Part shown: positions 6,301 through 20,640 of the stretch, piece after piece
How positions within the stretch are numbered: the stretch's first letter is position 1
Layout: each line of letters opens with the position of its first letter
Notes under the pieces: generated by a model
Seen by the model: the letters and a program-made list of their open reading frames with translations, nothing else
What the model was told of the DNA's origin: nothing
Databases searched by the model: none
DNA from: Pyronema omphalodes
Lineage: Eukaryota > Ascomycota > Pezizomycetes > Pezizales > Pyronemataceae
Assembly: GCA_024516155.1 (NCBI GenBank)
Contig: JAJJXM010000013.1
Span: 1-64,000, forward strand
Reading direction: 5' to 3'
DNA: 64,000 nt
Made by a program: the position numbers and the translations under genes

Positions 6301-8636
6301 ACAAAGATCAGATTAGTTTACTTCCTAGCTCTTGGGAAAATATGTATGTTGAATATCATTCACACGGACAACGACTGATCGAAAAAGCCTCTGTATCGAA
6401 AGCCGCAATACCCAGGTTCACACTATAAACTTCAGGCTCAAGCTACGAAGTTTACTTATCGACACGAACACGGAAGACCCTCTTCTAGTGCAAGACAACA
6501 CCAAACGATCCTCCATACAAAAATCACAAAGAAAGACATTCAACCAGCAATGGCCGCTCGAAGAATCACCGGCACTAATCGTCACAACGATGGACCTGAT
6601 GGCCTTATGGGCGACACCGTCAGCATCGCCCGCACTCGCTCTCGGGAGGAAGTTACTTCGGTTGGAACTCCTAGAGTCCACCATGGAACTACCCTCCATC
6701 TGGGTGAGGTCTCTGAATGGGTCACTCTAATGATGGAAAGAATGAACGCGAATGACAAGGATATCACAAGGTTGGTTGAGGCAGTCGGATCTGGGGCTGC
6801 CAAGAACGATCAGTTAGAACGGGTAAAAAGACTTCACCAAGAAACGGCCCAGGGAATGCAAAAGGCCTATGACACCTTAGCAAAGAAAGGAGACCTGGAC
6901 CAAGAGGTAAACCTTCAAACCACGACTCGACTCGTCCAGGCCAGCAACGATTTTCCGGGCCAAGTTTGGAGGACCATTGGCAATCTTGCCACGGATGCAC
7001 AAGCAAAGGAGGCAGCTCAGCAGGCAGCTGCAGAAAGACTCAACCAGGGCATGCAAACAATGAATGCTATCCTTGAGGCATTCGCCCAAAGGCAACTCGA
7101 AATCAACAAAGAAATTGAGGAATGGGCATTCCAGAAGAATACACAGGACGCCATCAGGAAGGAGGATGATGAAGAAAGGGATAGGAGGATTCCAGCTCTT
7201 TCTAGAGCTGAAGAGGTGTACCAGCAACGTCTGCTGGATTTCCAGGAGCAGAGAGAGGAGGAAAAATTGGAATTGGTAAACAAGGTTATTGACCTTGTTA
7301 TGTCAAAGATCCAGAGGAAGGAGCATTTCGATGCTAAGTCTTTAACTGAGGCTATGCATGAGGAGATGACTCCCAGACCTCCCTCACTCGGAAGAGCACC
7401 AGAGGTCCCCTTACCTCCATCAGAGGATGGAATCCCGGCAGACAACGGCAGAAGTGGTGGTAGGGGCAGTAAACCACCAGGAGGAGGACTCCCACCACCA
7501 CCACCACCCCAATCTGATGCTACGGACAGCGAGGATTCAGATGATACATATATTAGGAAAGCTTTGGAAACGAAGCGCCAGGAGCGCAAAGAAAAGGCTC
7601 AACAAAGAATACCTGAAGCAAAGAATGCCACGGAGGCATTCTTGGAATCACTTGTCGGGAAATTACAGCAATTGGGGGTTAATGAGCCGAGCAGACCTAA
7701 AATGCCGGAGATGAAGGCTCCTCAATATTTTTCCTGGGACAGACAAGAATTTGTTCAGGGCTTGGTGGATGTCAGTTCAGGACTATATCGCAACATACGC
7801 CAAGGCGTTCCCAGATGAGGATGATCAGGTGAAATGGGTAGGCAGTTTACTTACTCATAAGGCTGTAAGTTGGCACCAGGAAAGGCGCGTATCAATTCAA
7901 CGACAAGGATTCACGGATACGCGGCAAGCTTTCTCAAGCTCTATTGAGACAAGGTTTGATGATGAGCGGGAAGCCCAAAAAGACGTTAAGGGGATTGCAG
8001 AGCTCCAGTATGAGGGGGACATTGATGATTATATTACAAAATTGGAGGATCGCAATATGCGCGTTGGGGCAATTGGGCCAATGTATAGGGATGTAATCTG
8101 GGAGGCCATGTCACCGGCCATTAAAAAGATGGTATATCAAAGGCTTGGGGGGGATCCCAACAGATGATGAAGGAATGATTGATGCAGTTAAGGAAGCTGC
8201 TCACGTTGTTGAAAATTTGGAAGAGGAATTGAAGGGTCACAAGAAAAAGACTTTGGAAGTGCGGGAGGACCGCCATAAGGATAAAGGGAAGAACAAGGAA
8301 ACTGTGCGCCCTAAGGAGGTGCAGCACAAGGATAAGTTCAAGGATAAAAAAGAGAAAAAGAGTTTTTCAAAAAAGGACAAGAAGTCCATTTTTGCGTCAG
8401 GAAGGGAGGCTCTGAACAATGTTCCTCAGAGCGAAATCGATAAACATAAAAAAGATAAAGCTGACTGTTGGAGGTGCGGAAGATCTGGACATAAAATGTT
8501 GGATTGTTATGCAAAAGAAGACGGTTGGGGGAACAGAGCTCTCCGGCGAAGGAAAGGTGGCTTCCTCTGGCAAGAGGAAGAGAGACGATGATGATGATGG
8601 CAATAAAGGGCAGGAGAAGCCCAAGGAAACTAGCCA
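6301..8636 (+). mobile_element. Ty3/gypsy element B, 5' fragment (LTR end plus gag)
   Basis: This is the 3' end of a 5' LTR (about 6301-6422, ending CCCAGGTTCACA), a primer site CTATAAACTT, and most of gag. It stops abruptly at 8636 within the gag tail, where the truncated LTR of element D begins. It belongs to the same subfamily as B' (21765-30599). Pol is missing. Confidence 0.75.
6550..8591 (+). pseudogene. gag: Element B gag, frameshifted
   Basis: Starts at the Met at 6550, about 130 nt after the LTR. The first 390 codons are open: a long charged, coiled-coil-prone region (EEWAFQKNTQDAIRKEDDEE) and a proline-rich spacer. The frame then shifts near 7735 into the capsid-like core (KWVGSLLTHKAVSWHQERR) and again near 8150. 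A basic, Lys-rich region and a CCHC knuckle (CWRCGRSGHKMLDC) end the protein. Order and motifs match gag of C2 and B'. The two shifts sit at short homopolymers. Confidence 0.8.
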
Positions 8637-9289
8637 GTACTTACCTCGTACACAGGATGTCCCTGCAGCGTTGCCTTTGGTATAATCGTCGAGGGTTGGT
8701 CTTGGTGGGGAAATGGGTGAGTAATCGGAATGGGTAAGTAGCTGGGGATGGGCTGGGTTGGTGGTCACAGTTGGATGATCGAACTTCAGTGTGTAGATAG
8801 GATTGTGTAGATAGATAGTTGATTGCGTACTAAACTAATGAAATACAAATGTCCCCTTATATATCTTCCTTCCTGTGATCATGTGATTTCCCAACTTATC
8901 TGTCCCGCAAATATTCCATCCATCATGAGACACCCTTCACCCCACCGTGACTTCCAAACCTAACTAAAACATGAACAAAACACAATACAAAACATGAACA
9001 AAACACAATACAAAACATGAACAAAACACAATACAAAACATCATCAAAACATGATACGAAACATCAACAAAACATAACACAAAACCGTATTCCAAACCCT
9101 CCTCGTTCCATCCCGAACTTACCCCCCTGTCCTTCGCCTAAACCCTAACTGCTCTCGCCTAGCCCTAGCTCCACCTCCTCGCCTAAACCCTAACCGTGAC
9201 ATACGCCATCCCTAGTGTCACCCCCAGGAACCACAGCCCGGCTGTGGTTACAATTGCCCCCAGAAGCATATCCGTAGCGGTTCGTGATA
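8637..9289 (-). repeat. 3' LTR of element D, truncated at its end
   Basis: Minus sense starts TATCACGAACCGC at 9289 (TGTCACGAACC in the 5' copy at 33018) and runs to 8637. It lacks the last ~110 bp present in the 5' LTR (32279-32390). It contains TTAGGGTTTAGGCG motifs, three to four 23-bp repeats at 8966-9080, a TATA-like box near 8862 and the ACGCAATCAA self-priming partner near 8830. The first ~105 nt encode the C-terminus of the extra reading frame described for D. Confidence 0.8.
8966..9080. repeat. 23-bp tandem repeats within the D LTR
   Basis: Units of the type AACATGAACAAAACACAATAC occur three times almost perfectly, then degrade. The same array, with deletions, is in the other D LTR at about 32705-32815. 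Confidence 0.8.
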
Positions 9290-10123
9290 GTAGCTCCCCC
9301 CCCCCCCAGGCCGAGACTCCGACGAGGGTTGTCTGGGGTTCCCCGTGGGGACGAGGTCGGGGTTGTCGCTGGCGACGGTGATTGCGGTTCTGGCGGCGGC
9401 ATCTGCCGGATAGTCGTTGGTGGCGGGGAGAGTCTCCTCCGAACCCAGTGCTGGAGTGCTGCGGCAATGAGGACCCCTCGAATGGCGGTGGGGTGTGGTT
9501 CGGCGGTGGCACCTCTTCCTTTCCAGTGGGTGGTCCGTAAAAGGAGAGGTTTATCGCGAGTCGTTCGGGGTCCCTGTTCGGGACATGAGGTAGACAGGGA
9601 CATACCTCTTCTCCATCCAAGTCTCGCTCGAGGTTTCCGAGGCCAGCTCGGGTGCTGTTGGTGGCTGTTCCCCGTTGGGGTGTTGTTGGTCCTTCTCCGG
9701 GACGGGAGTTTGTTCATCCGGTGTCGGCGGCGGGAGGTGATGAGGAGCGGGCTGGCCCCGTGGCGCCGCATCTGGCCTCATGGCCGTCTATTTTTTCCAG
9801 AAACCCGCAGTCGTAGCAGACACTCTTTCCCCGCTGCCAGGCCCGACAGGCCTTCCGAACATCTAGATTTTCCTCCGGATCACTGCTTCTAACTCGGGAT
9901 CATGCATCCGTCCGCAGGTACATTCGTTGGTTCCTTCCTGTCCAGCGGTTGAAAAATAGTTGTGGTTCTCTTTCGATTGTCGATGTGTGGCGCAGTAGTC
10001 GTCATAGCAAAAGGTCCAGTGTTGGGCATCGTGTGGGGGATACGTGGTTGTCGGTGGGGGGGCGTTCTGGCGGTACCAGCCGCCGGAGTGTTGGTCCTTT
10101 TCGGGGTTTATGGGGCTGGCCAT
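9183..10123 (-). CDS. Extra reading frame of element D (ORF3): Cys/His domain, Pro-rich middle, C-terminal hydrophobic segment
   Basis: Not recognised as any known family. From Met 10123 it has HWTFCYDDYCATH (H-x3-C-x4-C-x2-H), then CTCGRMHDPELEAVIRR. After a frameshift near 9863 comes KACRAWQ...CYDCGFLEKIDGHEARC (C-x2-C-x8-H-x3-C). A Pro/Arg-rich low-complexity middle and another shift follow. The last frame (9183-9620) has AINLSFYGPP, VSAWGGGE and a hydrophobic stretch around MLLGAIVTTAGLWFLGVTLG, ending at TAG 9183. The last ~105 nt are inside the 3' LTR. Element E has the same order and motifs, so the protein was under selection. A zinc-binding, membrane-anchored product is inference. This copy is broken. 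Confidence 0.6.
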
Positions 10124-11446
10124 GGTTCTGACAACCTTGGGGCTGCTTTTTTTTGTAGGTTGTGTGAAATCGTCGGATAGCGTCGGGGCAATTCGTGAAG
10201 TTCTCCGAGGGTACCAAGTCTGGTCGGGATCAGGGAATCCCGTTCACGGTACACGATACTGGAGTCTATTTGGGTGGTAGCGGGAATCAACTATCTCCTC
10301 CACTTCCCATTCCTCTTTGTCTTCAATGATAATGGGTGGGGGAGAAGGTTGGACGTGCCCGGGGATCGTTGTAAGAGGAGGTTGAGCTAGCTCAAGCAAT
10401 GATATGTGCAATACAGGGTGTATCTTCACACTGGCGTGGAGGTCCAACTTATACGCTCTTGTTCCCATGCGCTCGAGGATGGTGTATGGTCCCATCAGCT
10501 TGTAATCCAACTTGCTGGATGGGCGACTTGTCTTCACATTTCTCCTCCGCAACCACACCCTATCCCCCTGCCTCAGCACAGGATCCGGGTGTTTTCTGAT
10601 TTGCCTGTTCTGCCTGGGCAGCCTGTGCATATCCGATTTCTGCCTGTAGTTCCCGGTGGAGGTTGGTGAGGGCTGAGACGTATTCCACCACCTCCAAATA
10701 TCCTCCTTCTACTCTTCCCAGGCTGGGTGCAAACCGCGGATGATACCCATAATTGGCGAAAAAGGGGGTAACCTTCGTTGTCTCGGATTGAGTGTTGTTA
10801 TAACAAAACTCCGCCAGTGGGAGTAGCTTTTCCCAGTCATCCTGCTGGTAATTGCAGTACGCCCGCAGGTACTGTTCAAGGGTAGCGTTCGTGCGTTCGG
10901 TCTGCCCGTCGGTCTCTGGATGGAATGCGGTGCTGAGCTTCCTCGTCGTCCCCATTGCCCCCATCACCCGTTTCCAAAACGTCGAAGTAAATAGAGACCC
11001 GCGGTCTGAGACGATATCATTAGGAAGTCCGTGGGCCCTGACCACATGCCTCAGGAATCCATCCGCCAGTTCTTCCGGCCCCATCGTGTCCGTATAGGCC
11101 ACAAGGTGAGCCATCTTTATGACTCGATCCACCATTACCCATAGGGCGTTGTTTCCTCCTCCTGGCGGAAGTCCGGTGATAAAGTCCATGGCCACCGAAT
11201 CCCACGGCGTCGCTGGTGGCTGTAAGGGCTTCAGGAGCCCGAAAGGAGCGTGCCTAACTGGCTTAATTCTTTTGCAGGTATCGCAGTGGTCTACGTATCG
11301 GTTGACATATTGGCGTTGCTGAGGCCAATAATAATTTCTACTGATTAGCTCCAAGGTCCTTGCCCGCCCTGGTGTCCCGCAACGAGTGCATCGTGGTGGT
11401 CATGTAGGAGCCGTAGCCGCAATCCATGGTCGTCTGGTACCCATAT
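10124..11446 (-). pseudogene. pol: Element D integrase and chromodomain
   Basis: Continuation of D pol after the E insertion. The His/Cys domain (ELISRNYYWPQQRQYV ... HCDTCKRIK) and the catalytic core are well kept: MDFITGLP with the first Asp, IVSDRGSLFTS with the second, FHPETDGQTERTNATLEQYL with the Glu. At about 10620 the frame shifts into the GPY/F module (DRVWLRRRNVKTSRPSSKL, LDYKLMGPYTILERMG), then a chromodomain start (EEWEVEEIVDSRYHP) and end (NCPDAIRRFHTTYKKK, about 10150-10217). A run of eight A near the end has probably slipped. The left border is the CATAT duplication of element E. Confidence 0.85.
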
Positions 11447-12226
11447 TGTCACAACGCTCCCGTGACATGGTCCTGGCCTCCGCCGTCACCACCGCAGGGC
11501 TATGGGTGGTTACCATCACCCTAGCAACCTGCTACGCCATCATGAAGTGATAGGGATAGGGTTAGGGCAAGGGGCTGGGCCCCTTGCCGGGGATTTCCAT
11601 ATGTTAGGAGTTATTTATTATTTGAACTTATTTTAGGTATCACGGTGGCTAGGGAAATGTTGGAATCGTTTACTTATCTCTTATGTAGTTGGAGTTACGG
11701 CGGTTAGCAAGGTAGTTATCTTTTGGTTATGTATTGTTTCTTTAGTATTTGGAATTGCGGCGGTTAGCAAGCTATCTTTTGGTATGTACTGTTTCTGTAT
11801 TATTTGGAATTACGGCAGTTAGCAAGGTAGTTATCTTTTGGTATGTATTGTTCCCTTGTTCTATTAATTGGAATTACGGTGGTTGGCAGTGGAGGGGGAT
11901 GTTGGTCATGTATTTAGTTATCACGGCGGTTAGCATTGGAGCATTCTCCGCAGGCAGAGAATGCTGAGTCACGAGTCATGAAGGAACAAGTATAAGAGGA
12001 GGAAATTTGTTTGTAGTTTATTTCTTCACGCAATCAAGTTTCTATTTACTATAATCCGTTCTACAAAAGTGCCCTTGTGATATCCCCATCTCTTCTAAAC
12101 TCACCTGTGATGTCCCAGCCAAACCCTCGCCCATTCCCAACCTACCAGCCTTACCTAAACCGCCCTCCTCGCCGCCGCTACCCTCGCGCTGCCTGTCGTC
12201 AGTAACCGTGGATACGGATTCTGATG
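11447..12226 (+). repeat. 5' LTR of element E
   Basis: Begins TGTCACAACGCTCCCG and ends near GATTCTGATG, followed by the primer site TTTGATTGCGTCC. It contains GGGATAGGGTTAGGG, several ATTACGGCGGTTAGCA repeats (11690-11935), an inverted repeat at GCATTCTCCGCAGGCAGAGAATGC, and a TATA box (TATAAGAGG, 11991). The first ~100 nt read SRDMVLASAVTTAGLWVV and on to TGA, the intact version of the ORF3 tail. Confidence 0.88.
11690..11935 (+). repeat. Imperfect ~50-70 bp tandem repeats in the E LTR
   Basis: Units of the form TTGGAATTACGGCGGTTAGCAAGGTAG... recur five to six times with TTATCTTTTGGTATGTATTG spacers. The same array is in the 3' LTR (18490-18740). They lie upstream of the TATA box in U3, where such repeats often bind activators; that role is inference. 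Confidence 0.7.
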
Positions 12227-12239
12227 TTTGATTGCGTCC
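12028..12239 (+). promoter_or_regulatory. Self-priming pair of element E (LTR 12028-12037; primer site 12227-12239)
   Basis: ACGCAATCAA in the LTR, 37 nt after the TATA box start, is complementary to TTGATTGCGT at 12228-12237 immediately after the LTR. The position close to the expected transcript start is what the Tf1 mechanism predicts. D has the same pair. Confidence 0.6.
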
Positions 12240-12297
12240 TGTGTACGACACCCAACGCGGAACGAAAACCCAGAAAACCCAGAAGTAGGCGAACACA

Positions 12298-13354
12298 GTG
12301 GCGTCCTTTCAGCTAAAAGAGCTCGGAGAACATATCGAACAAGAACCGACCGGATCGGCAAGCCCAGTGACCCCCGAACAACCATCCAGACCGCAGAACC
12401 CCGAATCCCCCGAACTGCCCCATACCCCTACCGACGACCCTGCGGAAATGGCGACCCCGGCAGGATTAGGACTTGTCACTCCCGTCACAATGACCCAGGA
12501 GCAGTTGAACCAGATCCTCATCCAACTCCATCGCCCCACGACAAACAGTAACCCAAAGGTGGAAGACCCGGAGCTGTACTATGGGGAAAGAACCAAGCAG
12601 AGGACATTCCTGACGCAATGCGAACTGAAGTTCAATTGCGAAGGGAAACGGTTCGGCACCGAACAAAAAAAGGTAAACTATGCGAGCTCCCGATGCAGAG
12701 GTAACGTTGGGCATGGATCGAGCCGTCCATCAAGGAGGGGAAGAGCGTATACACGACATGGGAGGCCTTCAAGACCGCTGTCAGTAGGGCTTTCGGGGAA
12801 GCCGACTCAAAAGAAGTAGCAAGAAGAAACTTCAAGATCATCAGGCAGGGCGCGCGATCCGCCGCTTCATACTGGGCCGAATTTCAAAGAATCAAATCCC
12901 ACTTAAGATATAATGACGAAACCAACATCGATCAATTCAGTGATGGACTAAATACAGACGTCCAACAACAGTTAGCACTCCTCGACGAACGACCGACGGA
13001 CCTCATGGAATTCGCGAACAAGGCCATAGCGTTAGACAACCGACTATTCAATTTCCAAATCCTGAGGACCCGATATGAACCTCAATTCTATCACCACCCC
13101 CACCTGAAGGGGCAGGGACACGACTCTCGACTCTCCGACCCCGAACCGATGGAATTAGATTCCACTCGCGGACCGAAACCAAGGGATAGGATGGAGGAGG
13201 ATAGGCGGAAGCGGAATAATCATGTTTTAACTGCGGGAAGGTGGGACACTACGCTGCGAAGTGCCCAAGTAAGAAATTATACTGAGCAGCGGAAACTACA
13301 TTGGTAGAACAGGGACTCGGTGAGACGTCGGGAAAAGAAAGTCCCCAGGAATAA
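12298..13354 (+). pseudogene. gag: Element E gag
   Basis: Opens soon after the primer site; the exact start is uncertain. A proline/threonine-rich N-terminus is followed by ELYYGERTKQRTFLTQCELKF, a shift near 12690, then the gag core (WAEFQRIKSHLRYNDE, FSDGLNTDVQQQLALLDE, ALDNRLFNFQ) and a shift near 13215. It ends in a perfect CCHC knuckle (CFNCGKVGHYAAKC, 13223-13264). The gag frame meets TAA at 13352-13354 inside a stem-loop shared with D. Confidence 0.8.
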
Positions 13355-13377
13355 AAGGAAAAGGTGGATTCCTGGGG
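13343..13377 (+). promoter_or_regulatory. Stem-loop at the gag end of element E
   Basis: CCCCAGGAAT (13343-13352) pairs perfectly with ATTCCTGGGG (13368-13377) across a 15-nt loop. The gag-frame TAA starts on the last stem base. D has the same 10-bp stem and 15-nt loop at 31080-31114 with a compensating pair change. Position suggests control of gag/pol expression. Confidence 0.6.
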
Positions 13378-13429
13378 CAACTGTCGCCCACCAGTTCAAA
13401 CACGGCAGGACCGGCGGATAGAATATCGA

Positions 13430-14300
13430 GTGTAGGACCATACGGGAGAAACGAAAAGATTATCCTGCGAGTAAAATTAATCGGACGAAATAAGAAAGAA
13501 CACCACACAACGGCCATGATCGACTGCGGGGCCACGGAGAATTTTATAGATCGAAATACGTGAGACAGCATGGATTGCCCTGCGCGAAAAAATAAACGCC
13601 ACGAAAGGTTCTCGCTGTAGACGGACGGGAATTGGATGGGGGCCCAGTAACCCACGATGCCATGGTGACCATGGTGATCAACGACCATAGGGAAGAAATT
13701 AGGCTCCACTGTATTACCATTGGCAACGCACCCATTATCCTGGGACTGCCTTGGTTGCGGAAACACAACCTCAGGATCGACTGGAAGGAGGGAAGGATTG
13801 TCTTCAATTCCGAAAAATGCGGAAAGAACTGCCTTCCCACCTTACCCCATGCCACGACCGTGACGGAACGAGGGCGGAAAAAGAATATAATCGACAGATA
13901 CATGAGGAAGCGGAGCACGCCTATGGTATGGAAGGGCCGGAAGATATGCTCCAGACGGATGAGGAAGATGAGCTTCGCATCCAAGAGATTTGGGGAGAAA
14001 GTATATGAGAGGGTGAAGAAGGAGAAGAAGTGGAAGAGTCGGAGAACGAGGATATGGAAAGCGTACAGGGATCTAGGCGCGCGGAATCCACCGAGGACGA
14101 TCCCGACTCGCTTCAGCGCGCTTCGCGGCAACCCCTGCAATCGCCGGCCAACCAGAAGGAACCGGGGAACTGGGAACCCGCTCCCGCCAAATCAATCGCT
14201 ACTGCGCCAGCCAACCAGAAAGAACCGGGGAACTGGGAAACCGCTCCCGCCAAATCAATTGCCACTTCCGGGGAATTGGAACTCGTGGGTACAATAACCC
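13430..14300 (+). pseudogene. pol: Element E retropepsin and linker
   Basis: Protease signature MIDCGATENFIDR near 13515-13550, then the flap/second half (LAVDGRELDGGPVTHDAM, ITIGNAPIILGLPWLRKH). A charged, glutamate-rich linker (about 13860-14300) contains a 21-residue unit repeated twice (period 63 bp, 14147-14272; core NQKEPGNWE). One or two shifts occur around 13565-13620 and near 14000. The equivalent linker in D carries a larger repeat array. Confidence 0.75.
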
Positions 14301-15680
14301 GAGCGGCGAAGAACAAACATGATTCCCTGGAAGGAATAATACCAGCAGAATATACAGATTACCTCTCCGTATTCAGGGAAAAAGAGGCGGTAGGGTTGCC
14401 TCCGCACCGACATCATGACCACCAAATCCCCTTGAGGAAGGGAAGATTCCGCCGTTCGAACCCCTGCGAGCTCTCGATGAGGAACGCCTGCGAGTATTGA
14501 GGGATTACTTGGAAGAGAATGAAAGGAGGGGTTGGGTCCGACGGTCGACGTCTCCAGCGGGAGCCCCAATCCATTTCGTTAAGAAAAAGGATGGTACCTT
14601 GCGGTTATGCGTTGACTACCGACGACTCAACGAAATCACAATCAAAGAAAGCACCCCACTCCCGCTGATAGGGGAAGCGTTGGATAGACTTTCCAACGCC
14701 AAGATCTATACAAAGTTGGATGTGCGAGATGCATACCATAACCTCTGAATAGCCACAGGAGATGAATGGAAGACTGCGTTCCGGACCAAGTATGGTCTAT
14801 ACGAATATTTGGTAATGCCATTTGGCTTAACAAATGCTCCAGCTTTGTTTCAACGATGGATGAATGAAGTCTTAAGTGATTACCTCGACATCTTTTGCAT
14901 CGCCTATCTCGACGACATATTGATTTACTCGGATAATATGGAGGAGCATCGGAAACCCGTTCGCATGGTCCTGGAAAGGTTAAGAGACGTATGACTCACC
15001 CTGAAACCCTCGAAATGTGAATTCAACACGAAAAGGACGGAATACCTGGGATACATCATATCCCCCACAGGGTTGCAAATGGACCCCGACAAAATTAGGG
15101 CGGTTAAGGAATGGAAGGAACCGGTAAATGTGAAGGGAGTCCAAAGTTTCCTGGGGTTCGCCAATTTCTACCGTTGATTCATCCGGGATTTCAGCAAGAT
15201 CACCACGCCATTGACACGATTCACGAAAAAACAGGTACCCTGGGAATGGCACGAGAACACAGCGAGCCTTTGAGCAACTCAAAACGGCAATGATATCCCA
15301 ACCGATCCTGCAACATTTCGACACGGATCGGCCACTCACCCTGAAAACAGACGCCTTAGACTATGCCATGGGGGCAGTCTGCTCACAACCCGACGACTCC
15401 AACGTACTGCACCCCCTGGCCTGTTTTCAAGAAAGTCAAAAACGCGGAGCCCAATTATGACATCCACGATAAGGAGCTCCTGGCAATAGTGGAAGCATTA
15501 CAAATGGTCTACATACTGCAAATCGACAAAACACAGTATCCGGATACTGTCAGACCATAAAAACCTGGAGTATTGGCAAACGAAGCGGGACCTCAACCTC
15601 CGACAGGCCCGATGGGCAGAAGAACTGGCTAACTATGACTTCACCATCACGTATCGACCAGGGAAGTTGCTGGAAAACCC
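14300..15680 (+). pseudogene. pol: Element E reverse transcriptase and RNase H
   Basis: Linker motif IIPAEYTDYLSVFREKEA leads into RT ([61 protein letters not shown] with the catalytic [13 protein letters not shown]). From 14497 the frame is interrupted only by TGA at 14746, 14992 and 15175, each at the place of an Arg codon. RNase H starts near 15320 ([13 protein letters not shown]; the usual ETDASD is altered) after a shift, with [16 protein letters not shown] following. Confidence 0.8.
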
Positions 15681-17287
15681 GACATATTGTCCCGAGACTC
15701 AGGAGACTCTCCCTGTGAAGGGGAGATGAAGCACCGGCAGAATCGAAGCCGAGTCCTCCTCCCCCAGGAAGGTTTTCATGTGAACGGGACACAATTGATC
15801 AGACTCACCCCGGACACCCCCCTCATGACCGAAATTCGGAAGAAGACGGAGACCGATACAGAACTTCAGGAGGTAATCCGCAAAATTCGGGGAGGAATAA
15901 CCCGAGACAATAGGGTCCCCTTGGGGTTATGCGAGGAAAAATGGGTTACTCCTATACCAGGGATTGATATGGGTCCCTGATGACGACGACCTGAGGTGAC
16001 AAATTCTACGACAACATCACAACTCCCAAGCCGCGGGGCATCCGGGACGGGCAAGGACCTTGGAGTTGGTCAGCCGAAATTTTTATTGGCCACAACAACG
16101 ACAGTATGTGACTCGATATGTCGACTACTGTGATACGTGTAGACGTATCAAACCCATTAAGCACGACCCCTTCGGTCTCTTACGACCATTACAGATTCCA
16201 GAAAGACCATGGGCATCCATCTCCACGGATTTTCACAGGTCTTCCGGAAGATGGGGGACTGAATACGATATGGGTGATTGTGGACCGCTTGACGAAGATG
16301 GCACACTTTGTACCATGTAGGGACACTATGGGGCCTAGGTCACTTGCGGACGGGTTTCTCACACATGTGGTACGGGCCCACGGACTCCCCAGCAGCATCA
16401 TCTGGGACCGGGGGTCCTTATTCACCTCTCAGTTGTGGAAGAGGATTATGGAGCCAATGGGAACCTCGAGGAACCTGAGTACGGCGTTCTACCCAGAGTC
16501 CGACGGACAGACAGAGAGGGTCAATGCGATCCTCGAGCAATACCTCAGCGTGTATTGTCACTACCAACAGAACAATTGGAACCAACTTCTTCCTATGGCG
16601 GAGTTCTGCGACACCAACTCCCGCTCAGGAACGACCAAGGTATCCCCCTTCTTTGCGAATTACGGATATCATCCCCGTTTTACAACCCACCGCTGGGTGA
16701 AGTCGCGGAAGGAAACCCCGAGGTCTCCAAATATGTTGGCGCCCTCAACCGACTTCACGAGGAACTAAGGGCAGAGGTCCACTATGCCCAGACTGCTCAT
16801 GCAGAACAGGCGAACCGGCATCGACACCCGGATCCGGTCCTTCGAGTGGGAGATCGGGTCTGGCTGAAGAGGAAGAATGTGAAAACCACCCGGCCCTCCA
16901 ACAAGCTCGACTACAAGTTATTGGGCCCCTACACCATCTTATCTAAGGTAGGGTGGCGAGCTTATAAGCTGGACCTCCCCCCAAACGCAAAGATCCATCC
17001 AGTATTTCACATCTCCCTGCTAGAACCGTCTCAACCTACTTCGACCACCATCCCAGGCCATATTCAGCCCCCTCCGCTACCGATTATCCTCGACGACGAG
17101 GAAGAGTGGCAAGTTGAAGAGATAGTGGATTCTCGACGCGACCGGGACAAACCAATATCGAGTCAAGTGGACTGGTTTCCACGACCCCGATACGACCTGG
17201 TACCCTGCCGACAATTTCCAAAACTCCCCCGACGCCATCACCCAATTCCACCACAGGTACCCTAAGAAACCTGCACCACAGCTGTAA
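15680..17287 (+). pseudogene. pol: Element E integrase with GPY/F module and chromodomain
   Basis: His/Cys domain at about 16010-16150 (HNSQAAGHPGRARTLELV, YCDTCRRIK). The catalytic core is in shifted frames (VIVDRLTKMAHFVPC; IIWDRGSLFTS; YPESDGQTERVNAILEQYL). GPY/F module DRVWLKRKNVKTTRPSNKLD and LLGPYTILSKVG, then chromodomain WQVEEIVDSRRDRD, a one-base shift, and YRVKWTGFHDPDTTWYPADNF to TAA at 17285-17287. That stop overlaps the ATG of ORF3 as TAATG. Confidence 0.85.
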
Positions 17288-18356
17288 TGGACGACAGAAC
17301 GAGTTCTGAGGACCCCCCGTCCGCTTTGGGCTGGTACCGAACCCCTGATCCTCCGGCAGAAAAGAAATCCCCCCACCCCACGATCCCGCACGCAGAACTA
17401 CACTGGTCGTTCTGCAACAACGACTCCTGCTCCATTCACCTCCAATTGAACTAAACAACAATCACTTCCCAGCGGTGGCGCAAGCAATTGCGGCACGCAT
17501 AAAAAAATCATGTAGCTGCGGGCATCTACATGATCGCGAGTTAGAATGGGTGATCCGAGACCGAAGGATGGACCCGCACAAGGCCTGCAAAGCATGGCAA
17601 GAAAGGAAGAGACTCTGCAAAGGTGTGCAAGTTCTTGGTCAACAAAGACGGACACGACCAGAGATGCGGCATCAGGGGATGTAAACCCCCCGACGGAGAC
17701 CGAGACAACGACCCCACCCTGCAGAACGAGCCCGAGACAGGAAGGGAACCTCCCGTCTCCACAGGAAAATCAGGAAAACGAACCACCCCGTCCCCGCGAA
17801 CTGGAATCAGAGGTACCTCACCATGCATACGATCCGACACCAACTCCCATGTAATTATGATGACCGGACCCTCGGACCACTAGAAGGTGGCAATCAACCT
17901 GTCCTTCTATCAGACAGCGGATCCGGAGCAGCATCTCCCCACCGTCGACTCCCGACCAACCAACGACCCTGACATCCGCCCCTTGTTCGGATCCCCGGAG
18001 CCCCCCGCCTCAGGGCACCAACAAGATTCAAATACCCCCGTTCTCCTTAGGGGCACCAACAAGAACAAACAACGGCGCCCCCCTTAGGACACCACAAGAG
18101 CAATACCGCCTTATGTCCTCGAGGACATCACCAGGACGTCGTACTTCGCCGACGTTGGGGAAGGCAGTATCGGGCACGGTCCACCATCCGGAGGCAGCGT
18201 GGGGGACTGGCCTACGGCCTCGCCCAGTCTCGGCGTGGAGGGGGGGGCTTATGTCACAACGCTCCCGTAACATGCTCCTGGCCTCCGCCGTCACCACTGC
18301 AGGGCTATGGGTGGTTACGCATCACCCTAGCAACCTGCTACGCCATCATGAAGTGA
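17287..18356 (+). CDS. Extra reading frame of element E (ORF3): Cys/His domain, Pro-rich middle, C-terminal hydrophobic segment
   Basis: The ATG at 17287-17289 overlaps the pol stop (TAATG), an arrangement compatible with termination-reinitiation. Order as in D: HWSFCNNDSCSIH (17401-17439), CSCGHLHDRELEWVIR (about 17512-17560), KACKAWQ and then CKFLVNKDGHDQRC (about 17586-17664), AINLSFY (17890), a Pro/Arg-rich stretch, RPVSAWRGG (about 18220-18245), and SQRSRNMLLASAVTTAGLW running into the 3' LTR. It needs several frame changes and has a one-base insertion near 18318, so this copy is dead. Spacing of Cys/His residues is identical to D. Family unknown. Confidence 0.6.
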
Positions 18357-19040
18357 TAGGGCTAGGGTTAGGGCAAGGGGCTAGGGCCCCTTGCCGGGGA
18401 TTTCATATGTTAGGAGTTATTTATTATTGACTTATTTTAGGTATCACGGTGGCTAGGGAAATGTTGGAATCGTTTACTCTATCTCTTATGTAGTTGGAGT
18501 TACGGCGGTTAGCCAGGTAGTTATCTTTTGGTTATGTATTGTTTCTTTAGTATTTGGAATTGCGGCGGTTAGCAAGCTATCTTTTGGTATGTACTGTTTC
18601 TGTATTATTTGGAATTACGGCGGTTAGCAAGGTAGTTATCTTTTGGTATGTATTGTTCCCTTGTTCTATTAATTGGAATTACGGCGGTTGGCAGTGGTGG
18701 GGGATGTTGGTCATGTATTAGTTATCACGGCGGTTAGCATTGGAGCATTCTCCGCAGGCGGAGAATGCTGAGTCACCAGTCATGAAGGAACCAGTATAAG
18801 AGGAGGAAATTTGTATGTAGTTTATTTCTTCACGCAATCAAGTTTCTATTTACTATAATCATATCTACAAAAGTGCCCTTGTGATATCCCCCATCTCTTC
18901 TAAACTCACCTGTGATTTCCCAGGCAAACCCTCGCCCATTCCCAACCTACCAGCCTTACCTAAACACCGCCGCCGCCCTCCTCGCCGCCGAAACCCCCGC
19001 GCTGCCTGTCGTCAGTAACCGTGGATACGGATTCTGATAA
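18252..19040 (+). repeat. 3' LTR of element E
   Basis: Near-identical to 11447-12226. It starts TGTCACAACGCTCCCGTAACATG and ends at GATTCTGATAA, before the CATAT duplication. The polypurine/G-rich stretch GTGGAGGGGGGGGCTT directly precedes it as the plus-strand primer. The high similarity of the two LTRs contrasts with the decay of the coding region. Confidence 0.88.
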
Positions 19041-19045
19041 CATAT

Positions 19046-20640
19046 CAACCCTTCATACAGCAGCAGCCCCTCCCGTTCTTCGCAAAGTCCCAATGCTACC
19101 TTCCGTCTATCTTCTCCCCAGTCCGTCATTTTCTTAATACCTCCTGTATCTCCTGATCCTCCCTTGTCTTCTGTTAATTTCTCTTACAATTCCTAGTCGA
19201 CCTGTATTTCCATGACCTCGGCAGAGTTGATCCAGAAGGTCTGCGGCGGCAAAAGGACTCGTTCCCTGTTCTGCCGGTGTTTCAGCTCCCCTTCCCAAGG
19301 AGATCTTCCTGATTCTCTCGATAGGATGTCGGGCTTTCCGCAAGTTTGCCAGGGTCGATAGTTTATTGGGAAGTCGTAGTCCGTCAACATTCCCAGCCCA
19401 CCTTGCTTGTCGTAGGTTTAGGTCTTTTTTCGTCGTCCAATATTGCCAATTTTTATGATCCGTTACTAAAAGCAATTTGTGTTGAGTATTCCTGCAGTCG
19501 TACCCCCTTTAGTTTAATCCTTCCACTATGGCGAGAAGTTCTTTATCATGTAATATCGTAATTTAGTGTCTGGGTCCTTCAGTGTTGCGCGAAAATATCC
19601 CAATGGATGTAGGATGCCCCTGGTCGTCTCGCTGTGAGCAACTGCACCGATGGCGCAGTCCGACGCATCTGTCTCCAGGGTTAGGGTTTTGTGGGGTCGA
19701 AATGGTCGTAGGATTGGTTCAGAAATCATTGCCCGGATCAGTTGTTCGAATCCTGATTTAGCCGCGTCGTCCCAATTTCCATGCTACATCATTTCTCGTC
19801 AATTTTGTAAAAGGCGCCGATGTTTTGCTGAAATCCCGGATAAACCTCCCGATAGAAGTTGGCAAACCCTATGAAACTCTGGATTCCCCTTCACGTTTGT
19901 TGGTTCCCTCCATTCTGGCACTGCCTTTTACCTTTTCCCGGATCCATCCGTATCCACGTTGGTGATATGATAATATCCCAAATACTCAGTCTCCGTGGTG
20001 TGAAATTCGCATTTTGGAGGCCTTGAGTCTCTCTTACCTTATCCACCCGTTGCAAAACTTCCTCACATGTTGTTGGTGTTGATGCAGATCATCCGAGTGA
20101 ATGAGGATGTCGTCAAGATATGCCAGACAGAAGATATCTACATAGTCACTGAGGACCTCGTTCATCCACCTCTGGAAGGATGCTGGAGCGTTGGTAAGGA
20201 CCGAAATGGCATGACCAAATACTCAAAAAGGCCCGTATTTCGTCCGAAAAGCAGTCTTCCATTCGTCCCCCTTTGCGATTCGCAGGTTATGATAGGCGTC
20301 CCGTACGTCGAGTTTCGTGTATATTTTTGCGTTGGATAGTCGATCCAACGCTTCCCCTATCAACGGGAGAGGTGTTCTATCTTTCACTGTGATCTCGTTA
20401 AGTCCCCGATAATCCACACAGAGTCTCAGTGTGCCATCCTTCTTTTATACAAAATGAATCGGGGCCCCCGCCGGTGATGTCGAGCGGCGTATCCATCCCT
20501 TCTCCAGACTAGTGTCCAACTATTCCTCAACGTTCTCAGCCTTCCCTCGTCCATGCTCGAAGGGGTCCGAATGCCAGAACCCCTCCCTCCACCAACGGAA
20601 TCCGATGGTCGTGATGGGCGGTGTGGGGGGCGTCCGGACA
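19046..20640 (-). pseudogene. pol: Element D reverse transcriptase, RNase H and integrase start
   Basis: Minus strand, reading from 20640 down. RT has [19 protein letters not shown] and [20 protein letters not shown], with the YLDD box near 20106-20125. RNase H has LTLETDASDCAIGAV (19670-19690) and KLRYYMIKNFSP. The connection domain LLVTDHKNWQYWTTKKDL lies near 19430-19470. Several frame changes occur. The CGA codon that is TGA at 14746 in E is still CGA here (about 20286). Confidence 0.8.

Follow-up and report, generated by a model that had tools for sequence, protein, structure and literature searches.

A third gene under purifying selection in two chromovirus families of Pyronema omphalodes

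The window analysed here is a stretch of 64,000 nucleotides (64 kb) of Pyronema omphalodes DNA (contig JAJJXM010000013.1, positions 1 to 64,000) carrying two chromoviruses, the long terminal repeat (LTR) retrotransposons D (minus strand) and E (plus strand), in which the pol gene is followed by a further open reading frame, ORF3. ORF3 is a genuine third gene, maintained by purifying selection in both chromovirus families. It encodes a protein of about 300-355 residues with a Cys/His-rich N-terminal module, variable linkers and a C-terminal hydrophobic stretch. The original prediction had placed Cys/His motifs and a hydrophobic tail in both elements, and a six-frame regular-expression scan of the window recovered them on the strands given (Table 1), with no further match to the WCCH-type motif (W-x2-C-x4-C-x2-H) in the six frames beyond D and E; this is consistent with the absence of ORF3 from families A/F and C, which for those families is a motif-level check. 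TAGLW, from the hydrophobic tail, was found at 9245 (minus) in D and 18296 (plus) in E, and once more within the 5' LTR of E, at 11491. The motifs thus stood, but the single frame that had been read across each window copy did not: that reading crossed frames, and ORF3 is broken in both copies, with open runs from the ATG of 86 codons (D) and 55 codons (E). The last Cys/His motif, C-x2-C-x8-H-x3-C, crosses a frame change in the window copy of E, and the scan found an intact version in D only.

ORF3 is maintained by purifying selection

Relatives were collected from the same genome (60.8 Mb), in which first-look candidates numbered 248 for E and 145 for D. Each search scored 40 copies, of which all 40 were examined for E and 36 for D, four scored D copies lying outside the D set. 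The sets include the window copies, their duplicates on contig C188 and some partial matches (L047, L048, L068). ORF3 ran continuously from its ATG for 355 amino acids in 20 of the 40 E copies and for 312 amino acids in 21 of the 36 D copies, so that a continuous frame was found in 41 of 76 own-genome copies; the others were interrupted, partial or without the ATG.

Selection was assessed on the continuous copies, pairs of which are non-independent. The pooled within-family ratio of nonsynonymous to synonymous polymorphism (pN/pS) was 0.274 for D (21 copies) and 0.552 for E (20 copies), compared with 1.159 and 1.990 (D) and 1.097 and 0.910 (E) in the two shifted frames. Variants common to at least two copies, which should mostly be older than the insertion, were less often nonsynonymous (N) relative to synonymous (S) than singletons, both in D (14N:28S versus 64N:45S, Fisher p 0.006) and in E (23N:19S versus 195N:74S, Fisher p 0.029), nonsense singletons (one in D, five in E) being excluded from the counts. 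Between the families, represented by a single copy each (L015, L028), 134 of 305 aligned residues were identical, and the ratio of nonsynonymous to synonymous divergence (dN/dS), which is rough as synonymous sites are near saturation, was about 0.36 for ORF3 as a whole; by region it was 0.25 (Cys/His module), 0.21 (LTR-encoded tail) and 0.40 (linkers). The neighbouring pol gave a dN/dS of about 0.07 at 70-75% identity; ORF3 therefore evolves faster than pol, yet not freely. With dN/dS and pN/pS below 1 and shifted-frame controls of 0.9-2.0, the earlier proposal of selection on a protein is borne out.

These values bear directly on the idea that the region has no present role, being either a relic in decay or a gene taken up from the host, and that its conservation reflects the polypurine tract and LTR ends. 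Both window copies are indeed broken, and the polypurine stretch described below is conserved as DNA, third codon positions included. Against this stand the 41 continuous copies, a pN/pS well below 1, constraint that extends beyond the polypurine tract, and relatives in other records; the decaying-relic version is already contradicted by the selection tests. As to host capture, an own-genome search with one relative returned at least 235 matches (126 of 463 candidates scored), and four of five divergent sites from it hold D- or E-type ORF3, the fifth (L081) having no such frame; a host relative may still exist. We regard this explanation, in either form, as very improbable.

Protein layout suggests a tail anchor

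The module runs in a fixed order: W-x2-C-x4-C-x2-H, conserved K, N and P residues, C-x-C-G-x2-H-D, KACxAW and C-x2-C-x8-H-x3-C. Variable linkers come next, then a short segment containing N-L-S and, after a spacer, the hydrophobic tail, ahead of which the alignment shows an arginine-rich segment in both D and E. Within the module, Cys/His columns had a mean identity of 0.83 and the other columns 0.65 (24 representatives, many of them fragments or decayed copies). Kyte-Doolittle hydropathy over 19 residues (KD19) reached its maximum at the tail in six of six proteins (1.61-2.20), the best segment outside the last 60 residues scoring 0.11-1.20. The better of two AlphaFold models gave predicted local distance difference test (pLDDT) values of 64-87 for the module and 89-96 for a C-terminal helix at residues 271-302, so the hydropathy and one long predicted helix both support the C-terminal hydrophobic segment first noted in the window. 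At the N-terminus, hydropathy revealed no hydrophobic segment in any of the six proteins (maximum -1.48 to -0.69; no signal-peptide predictor was used). A lone hydrophobic segment lying some 40 residues or less from the C-terminus, as judged by hydropathy rather than a transmembrane predictor, is the layout of a tail-anchored protein, which ORF3 resembles more than it does Env; from this layout we infer membrane insertion. The linker of E-type relatives (e.g. P0006, P0009, P0013, P0032) contains a GHQQ(D/E)QI-type repeat whose number of copies differs from one relative to another.

The original prediction had allowed for an env-like product, which in the usual sense would be a surface protein made from a spliced RNA, passed through the endoplasmic reticulum and displaying its Cys-rich part outside. 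Such a protein would suit the position after pol, the C-terminal hydrophobic segment and the conserved cysteines, and the CCACAG just before the E ATG is a plausible splice acceptor. In bdelloid rotifer LTR retrotransposons, ORF3 genes of env-like, GDSL esterase and DEDDy exonuclease types are described, and an env-like role is suggested for some small ORFs with transmembrane domains (PMC5408684); these too are third ORFs of LTR elements, some of them transmembrane, but the elements are animal ones, and Pfam scans reported none of the env-like, GDSL esterase and DEDDy exonuclease families for ORF3. D carries AAG where E has CAG, the Cys/His pattern would fit metal ligands better than disulphide pairs, and the missing N-terminal hydrophobic segment leaves no evident signal peptide in any of the six proteins. 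An env-like function in the usual sense is therefore not upheld, and we consider this reading quite improbable.

The same features could instead describe a nucleic-acid chaperone or second nucleocapsid, whose zinc motifs and arginine-rich stretch would bind RNA or cDNA and whose tail would oligomerise. The Cys/His module, the arginine-rich stretch that precedes the tail of D and E, and the long helix predicted for residues 208-240 of the P0014 model would be in keeping with such a role. The tail, however, is strongly hydrophobic, and Gag of E already carries a CCHC motif (regular-expression scan); we think a chaperone unlikely.

The C-terminal tail is encoded in the LTR

ORF3 had been described as lying between the chromodomain and the 3' LTR, and this holds for most of its length; its last 104-107 nucleotides lie inside the LTR. 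The 3' LTR begins at ORF3 codon 322 in E and codon 278 in D, the start in D being set by three 5' LTR junctions, whose flanks diverge right before TGTCACGAACC; in the window copy of D the LTR start reads TATCAC, not TGTCAC. These first 104-107 nucleotides of the LTR code for 34-35 residues, including the hydrophobic helix. In this stretch D matches E at 44 of 67 positions that are first or second in their codon, against 12 of 34 third positions (p 0.006), a pattern that is a mark of coding constraint.

The opposite pattern precedes the LTR. The 30 nucleotides just before it, compared between one D and one E copy, are identical at 26 of 30 positions, including nine of ten third codon positions, and form a G-rich polypurine run coding for V-S-A-W-R-G. 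A polypurine tract primes the plus strand in LTR elements, and conservation of the DNA here is best explained by plus-strand priming. Because third codon positions are conserved too, VSAW is poor evidence for selection on the protein, and its earlier use as such has to be dropped: it overlaps the polypurine tract, and its conservation is largely at the DNA level. The LTR region of D in the window also holds telomere-like CCTAAACCCTAAC runs (9138-9194), and the last ORF3 codons of D lie inside one of them.

The pol/ORF3 junction suggests possible stop-restart translation

In 37 of 39 E copies the pol stop and the ORF3 start overlap as TAATG, and in 31 of 36 D copies a TAA lies 5 nucleotides before the ATG. 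The open stretch of the ORF3 frame upstream of the ATG measures 6 codons in 33 of 38 E copies; in 27 of 36 D copies it measures 36 codons. With only 6 open codons, a frameshift fusion to pol would therefore be tight in E. According to PMC5972666, influenza B (segment 7) restarts at UAAUG, and the retrotransposon SART1 likewise has a stop and restart site that overlap; E shares the TAATG with them. The arrangement suggests that ORF3 is made by stop-restart translation after pol.

A WCCH-type motif, also reported in geminivirus V2

The first module motif resembles Pfam family PF03716 (WCCH), a motif of retrotransposons and geminiviruses. The genome gave 105 matches, of which 89 pass the 22.4-bit cut-off, six on their own score and 83 by 0.1-0.5 bits when frame neighbours are counted; the window copy of E scores 20.7 bits, below it. 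Additional matches that were opened proved to be E-type ORF3, D-type copies being lower-scoring or not in the match list. Four of nine single relatives matched at 15.6-15.9 bits, all below the cut-off, and among 36 members five matched at E <= 1 (best E 0.00033). The matched part is mostly positions 1-17 of the 25-position model, and the rest of ORF3 has no match.

The WCCH motif is reported from geminivirus V2 (PMC8532979), and a passage of PMC7831499 places it at residues 79-102 of V2, a protein that suppresses silencing and for which residues 1-92 are named as necessary. V2 (AV2) is, however, a plant virus protein of 115 amino acids, and its likeness to ORF3 is one of description. That ORF3 counters host RNA silencing, through membrane-located binding of a small RNA or silencing factor, would accord with the 89 of 105 PF03716 matches above the cut-off, with the reported presence of WCCH in the V2 suppressor and with a constraint looser than that on pol, which would fit an arms race. 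Against it, 83 of the 89 passes are marginal, the window copy of E and the single relatives fall below the cut-off, D-type copies score lower or are unlisted, the match covers mainly model positions 1-17, and the V2 passage (PMC7831499) does not show WCCH to be the active part. WCCH is a functional lead, not homology, and an anti-silencing role seems to us improbable.

Relatives and previous descriptions

Three database searches returned 13, 61 and 69 proteins, giving 89 distinct relatives: a protein annotated in Pyronema domesticum, an ENA record with 96% identity to D, and 87 JGI records, for which chromovirus context and LTR-located tails are assumed. The best relative (E 7e-206, 96% identical) belongs to the same family and the next reached E 3.5e-69 at 45% identity, so the similarity is not due to chance. 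The Pyronema domesticum protein starts within the E-aligned region, and its gene model looks short. In a tree of 37 sequences of at least 200 amino acids, well supported separate groups formed round D, round E with the Pyronema protein, round P0002 and round P0003/P0014, with P0066 and P0068 on long branches. Of the database copies with a name, three are labelled ribosomal protein L32 and one fatty acid transport protein, both apparently in error; the others are termed hypothetical. On the strength of the Pyronema domesticum relative and the element type, the ORF3-bearing chromovirus lineage is probably fungal.

The original prediction was aware of no published fungal chromovirus protein built in this way. 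The literature searched, which left most subscription journals out of reach, yielded no description of the ORF3 protein or of an LTR-encoded anchor, in line with that claim; it needs qualifying in that extra ORFs in fungal Gypsy elements have been reported. In PMC2864245 (2010), the legend to a drawing of fungal Gypsy elements names an 'additional ORF', with no function assigned, for part of them; this is an extra ORF like ORF3 that, known from legend text, cannot be equated with it. Extra ORFs in LTR elements are thus known; the literature searched held no account of the ORF3 family or of an anchor written in the LTR.

Proposed mechanism and its weak points

We propose that ribosomes on the full-length RNA would terminate on reaching the end of pol and start again at the neighbouring AUG, yielding small amounts of the ORF3 product; that its Cys/His module would bind zinc; that the hydrophobic end would be inserted post-translationally as a tail anchor, the zinc module staying in the cytosol; and that the protein would, most likely, tether the element RNA or the Gag particle to a membrane and so aid assembly. 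As a joint explanation, ORF3 as a third chromovirus gene that is restart-translated, zinc-binding and tail-anchored and serves as a membrane tether is held tentatively, at somewhat less than an even chance. A broader proposal is possible though rather doubtful: fungal chromoviruses would encode a protein family, as yet undescribed, that binds metal, is tail-anchored and arises by stop-restart. Its anchor would be coded by the LTR end that integrase recognises and the residues before it by the polypurine tract, one piece of DNA thus serving plus-strand priming, integration and anchoring, and the protein would provide a membrane-linked or anti-silencing step in the life of the element.

Several observations weigh against this mechanism, of which tethering is the least supported step. 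The pol stop is lost in the window copy of D, which reads TCA there. UGGGA, motif 1 of the termination upstream ribosome-binding site (TURBS), was absent from the 100 nucleotides upstream in all 39 E and all 36 D copies, and folding of one copy per family showed no unusual RNA structure at the junction (z -0.64 to 1.03), points on which ORF3 differs from UAAUG restart of the influenza B segment 7 and SART1 kind; some known restart cases do not need motif 1, as PMC5972666 states. ORF3 is much less constrained than pol, and the E singletons look neutral, although sequencing error may have inflated them. The two AlphaFold models are of low confidence overall (mean pLDDT 55 and 63), and structure searches with the ORF3 models found no fold match; because the models are low in confidence and without a known fold, the predicted zinc binding is based on the motifs only.

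The literature searched contains few accounts of third genes in LTR retrotransposons of fungi. ORF3 is selected, its relatives fall into several sequence groups and, in D and E, the LTR doubles as coding DNA for its predicted anchor. Provided that it is expressed, ORF3 would be a manageable system in which to ask why a membrane protein is retained by an intracellular element, whether for particle assembly, for defence against silencing, or as a remnant or beginning of an envelope. It can also serve as an annotation marker for database copies now called hypothetical or apparently misnamed.

The D/E locus in the window

E is an insertion within D. It spans 11447 to 19038, and its two LTRs are identical at 746 of 776 aligned bases. 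The nesting follows from the gap between the D pol fragment and D ORF3, which is about 7.6 kb longer here than elsewhere, the length of E: in other copies, the sites matched by the minus-strand pol fragment beyond E lie about 2.1 kb upstream of a D-type ORF3 (for example the pairs C177:391272 and 393337, and C12:59702 and 61767). In one relative copy of each family, the zinc-binding domain of integrase (Integrase_H2C2) was found at E 3.5e-20 (D) and 1.5e-20 (E), the rve core scored 32.1 bits (D) and 28.7 bits (E), below its 32.6 cut-off, and the chromodomain PF00385 at the pol end scored above cut-off, at 39.1 bits (D) and 45.6 bits (E). YLDDILIYS with neighbouring reverse transcriptase-like residues was read from the translation of E pol.

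Table 1. Features of elements D and E in the window
Feature	Positions	Strand	Basis or remark
ORF3 of D, broken here (312 amino acids in continuous copies)	9183..10123	-	
D WCCH-type motif, W-x2-C-x4-C-x2-H	9983..10018	-	Regular expression; copy absent from PF03716 matches
D C-x-C-G-x2-H-D motif	9899..9922	-	Regular expression
D C-x2-C-x8-H-x3-C motif	9768..9818	-	Regular expression
D ORF3 part inside 3' LTR: basic flank, hydrophobic helix, stop	9183..9289	-	5' junctions in other copies
D pol 3' part, integrase to chromodomain, frame changes	10244..11399	-	Domains from relative copy
D pol fragment beyond inserted E	19134..19783	-	Matches upstream of D-type ORF3 elsewhere
E 5' LTR	11447..12225	+	746/776 aligned bases identical to 3' LTR
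E pol 3' part, integrase to chromodomain, frame changes	16000..17286	+	Domains from relative copy
E pol stop/ORF3 start overlap, TAATG	17285..17289	+	Same in 37/39 E copies
ORF3 of E, broken here (355 amino acids in continuous copies)	17287..18356	+	
E WCCH-type motif	17404..17439	+	Regular expression; PF03716 20.7 bits, cut-off 22.4
E C-x-C-G-x2-H-D motif	17511..17534	+	Regular expression
E polypurine tract and flank, coding V-S-A-W-R-G-G-L	18222..18251	+	D/E identity 26/30 nucleotides (continuous copies)
E ORF3 part inside 3' LTR	18252..18356	+	
E 3' LTR	18252..19038	+	

The nested locus (about 7683-19856 in the window) is present again on contig C188, at about 391254-403423. The two versions are identical over 3.9 kb of the D stretch and differ over 4 kb of the E stretch by 53 substitutions (35 of them transversions) and many indels. 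These differences look more like sequencing or assembly error than biological divergence, and part of the frame breaks in the window copy of E may have the same source.

Tandem repeats occur in both elements: an array of a 23-nucleotide unit near the 3' end of D (8966-9080), and a pair of 62-nucleotide copies, 92% alike, in the internal region of E upstream of the reverse transcriptase (14142-14266). Elsewhere in the genome, at L086 (C151:759536-762586), an E-type ORF3 lies about 1 kb from the pol end of a different chromodomain element on the opposite strand, an arrangement that suggests another nested insertion.

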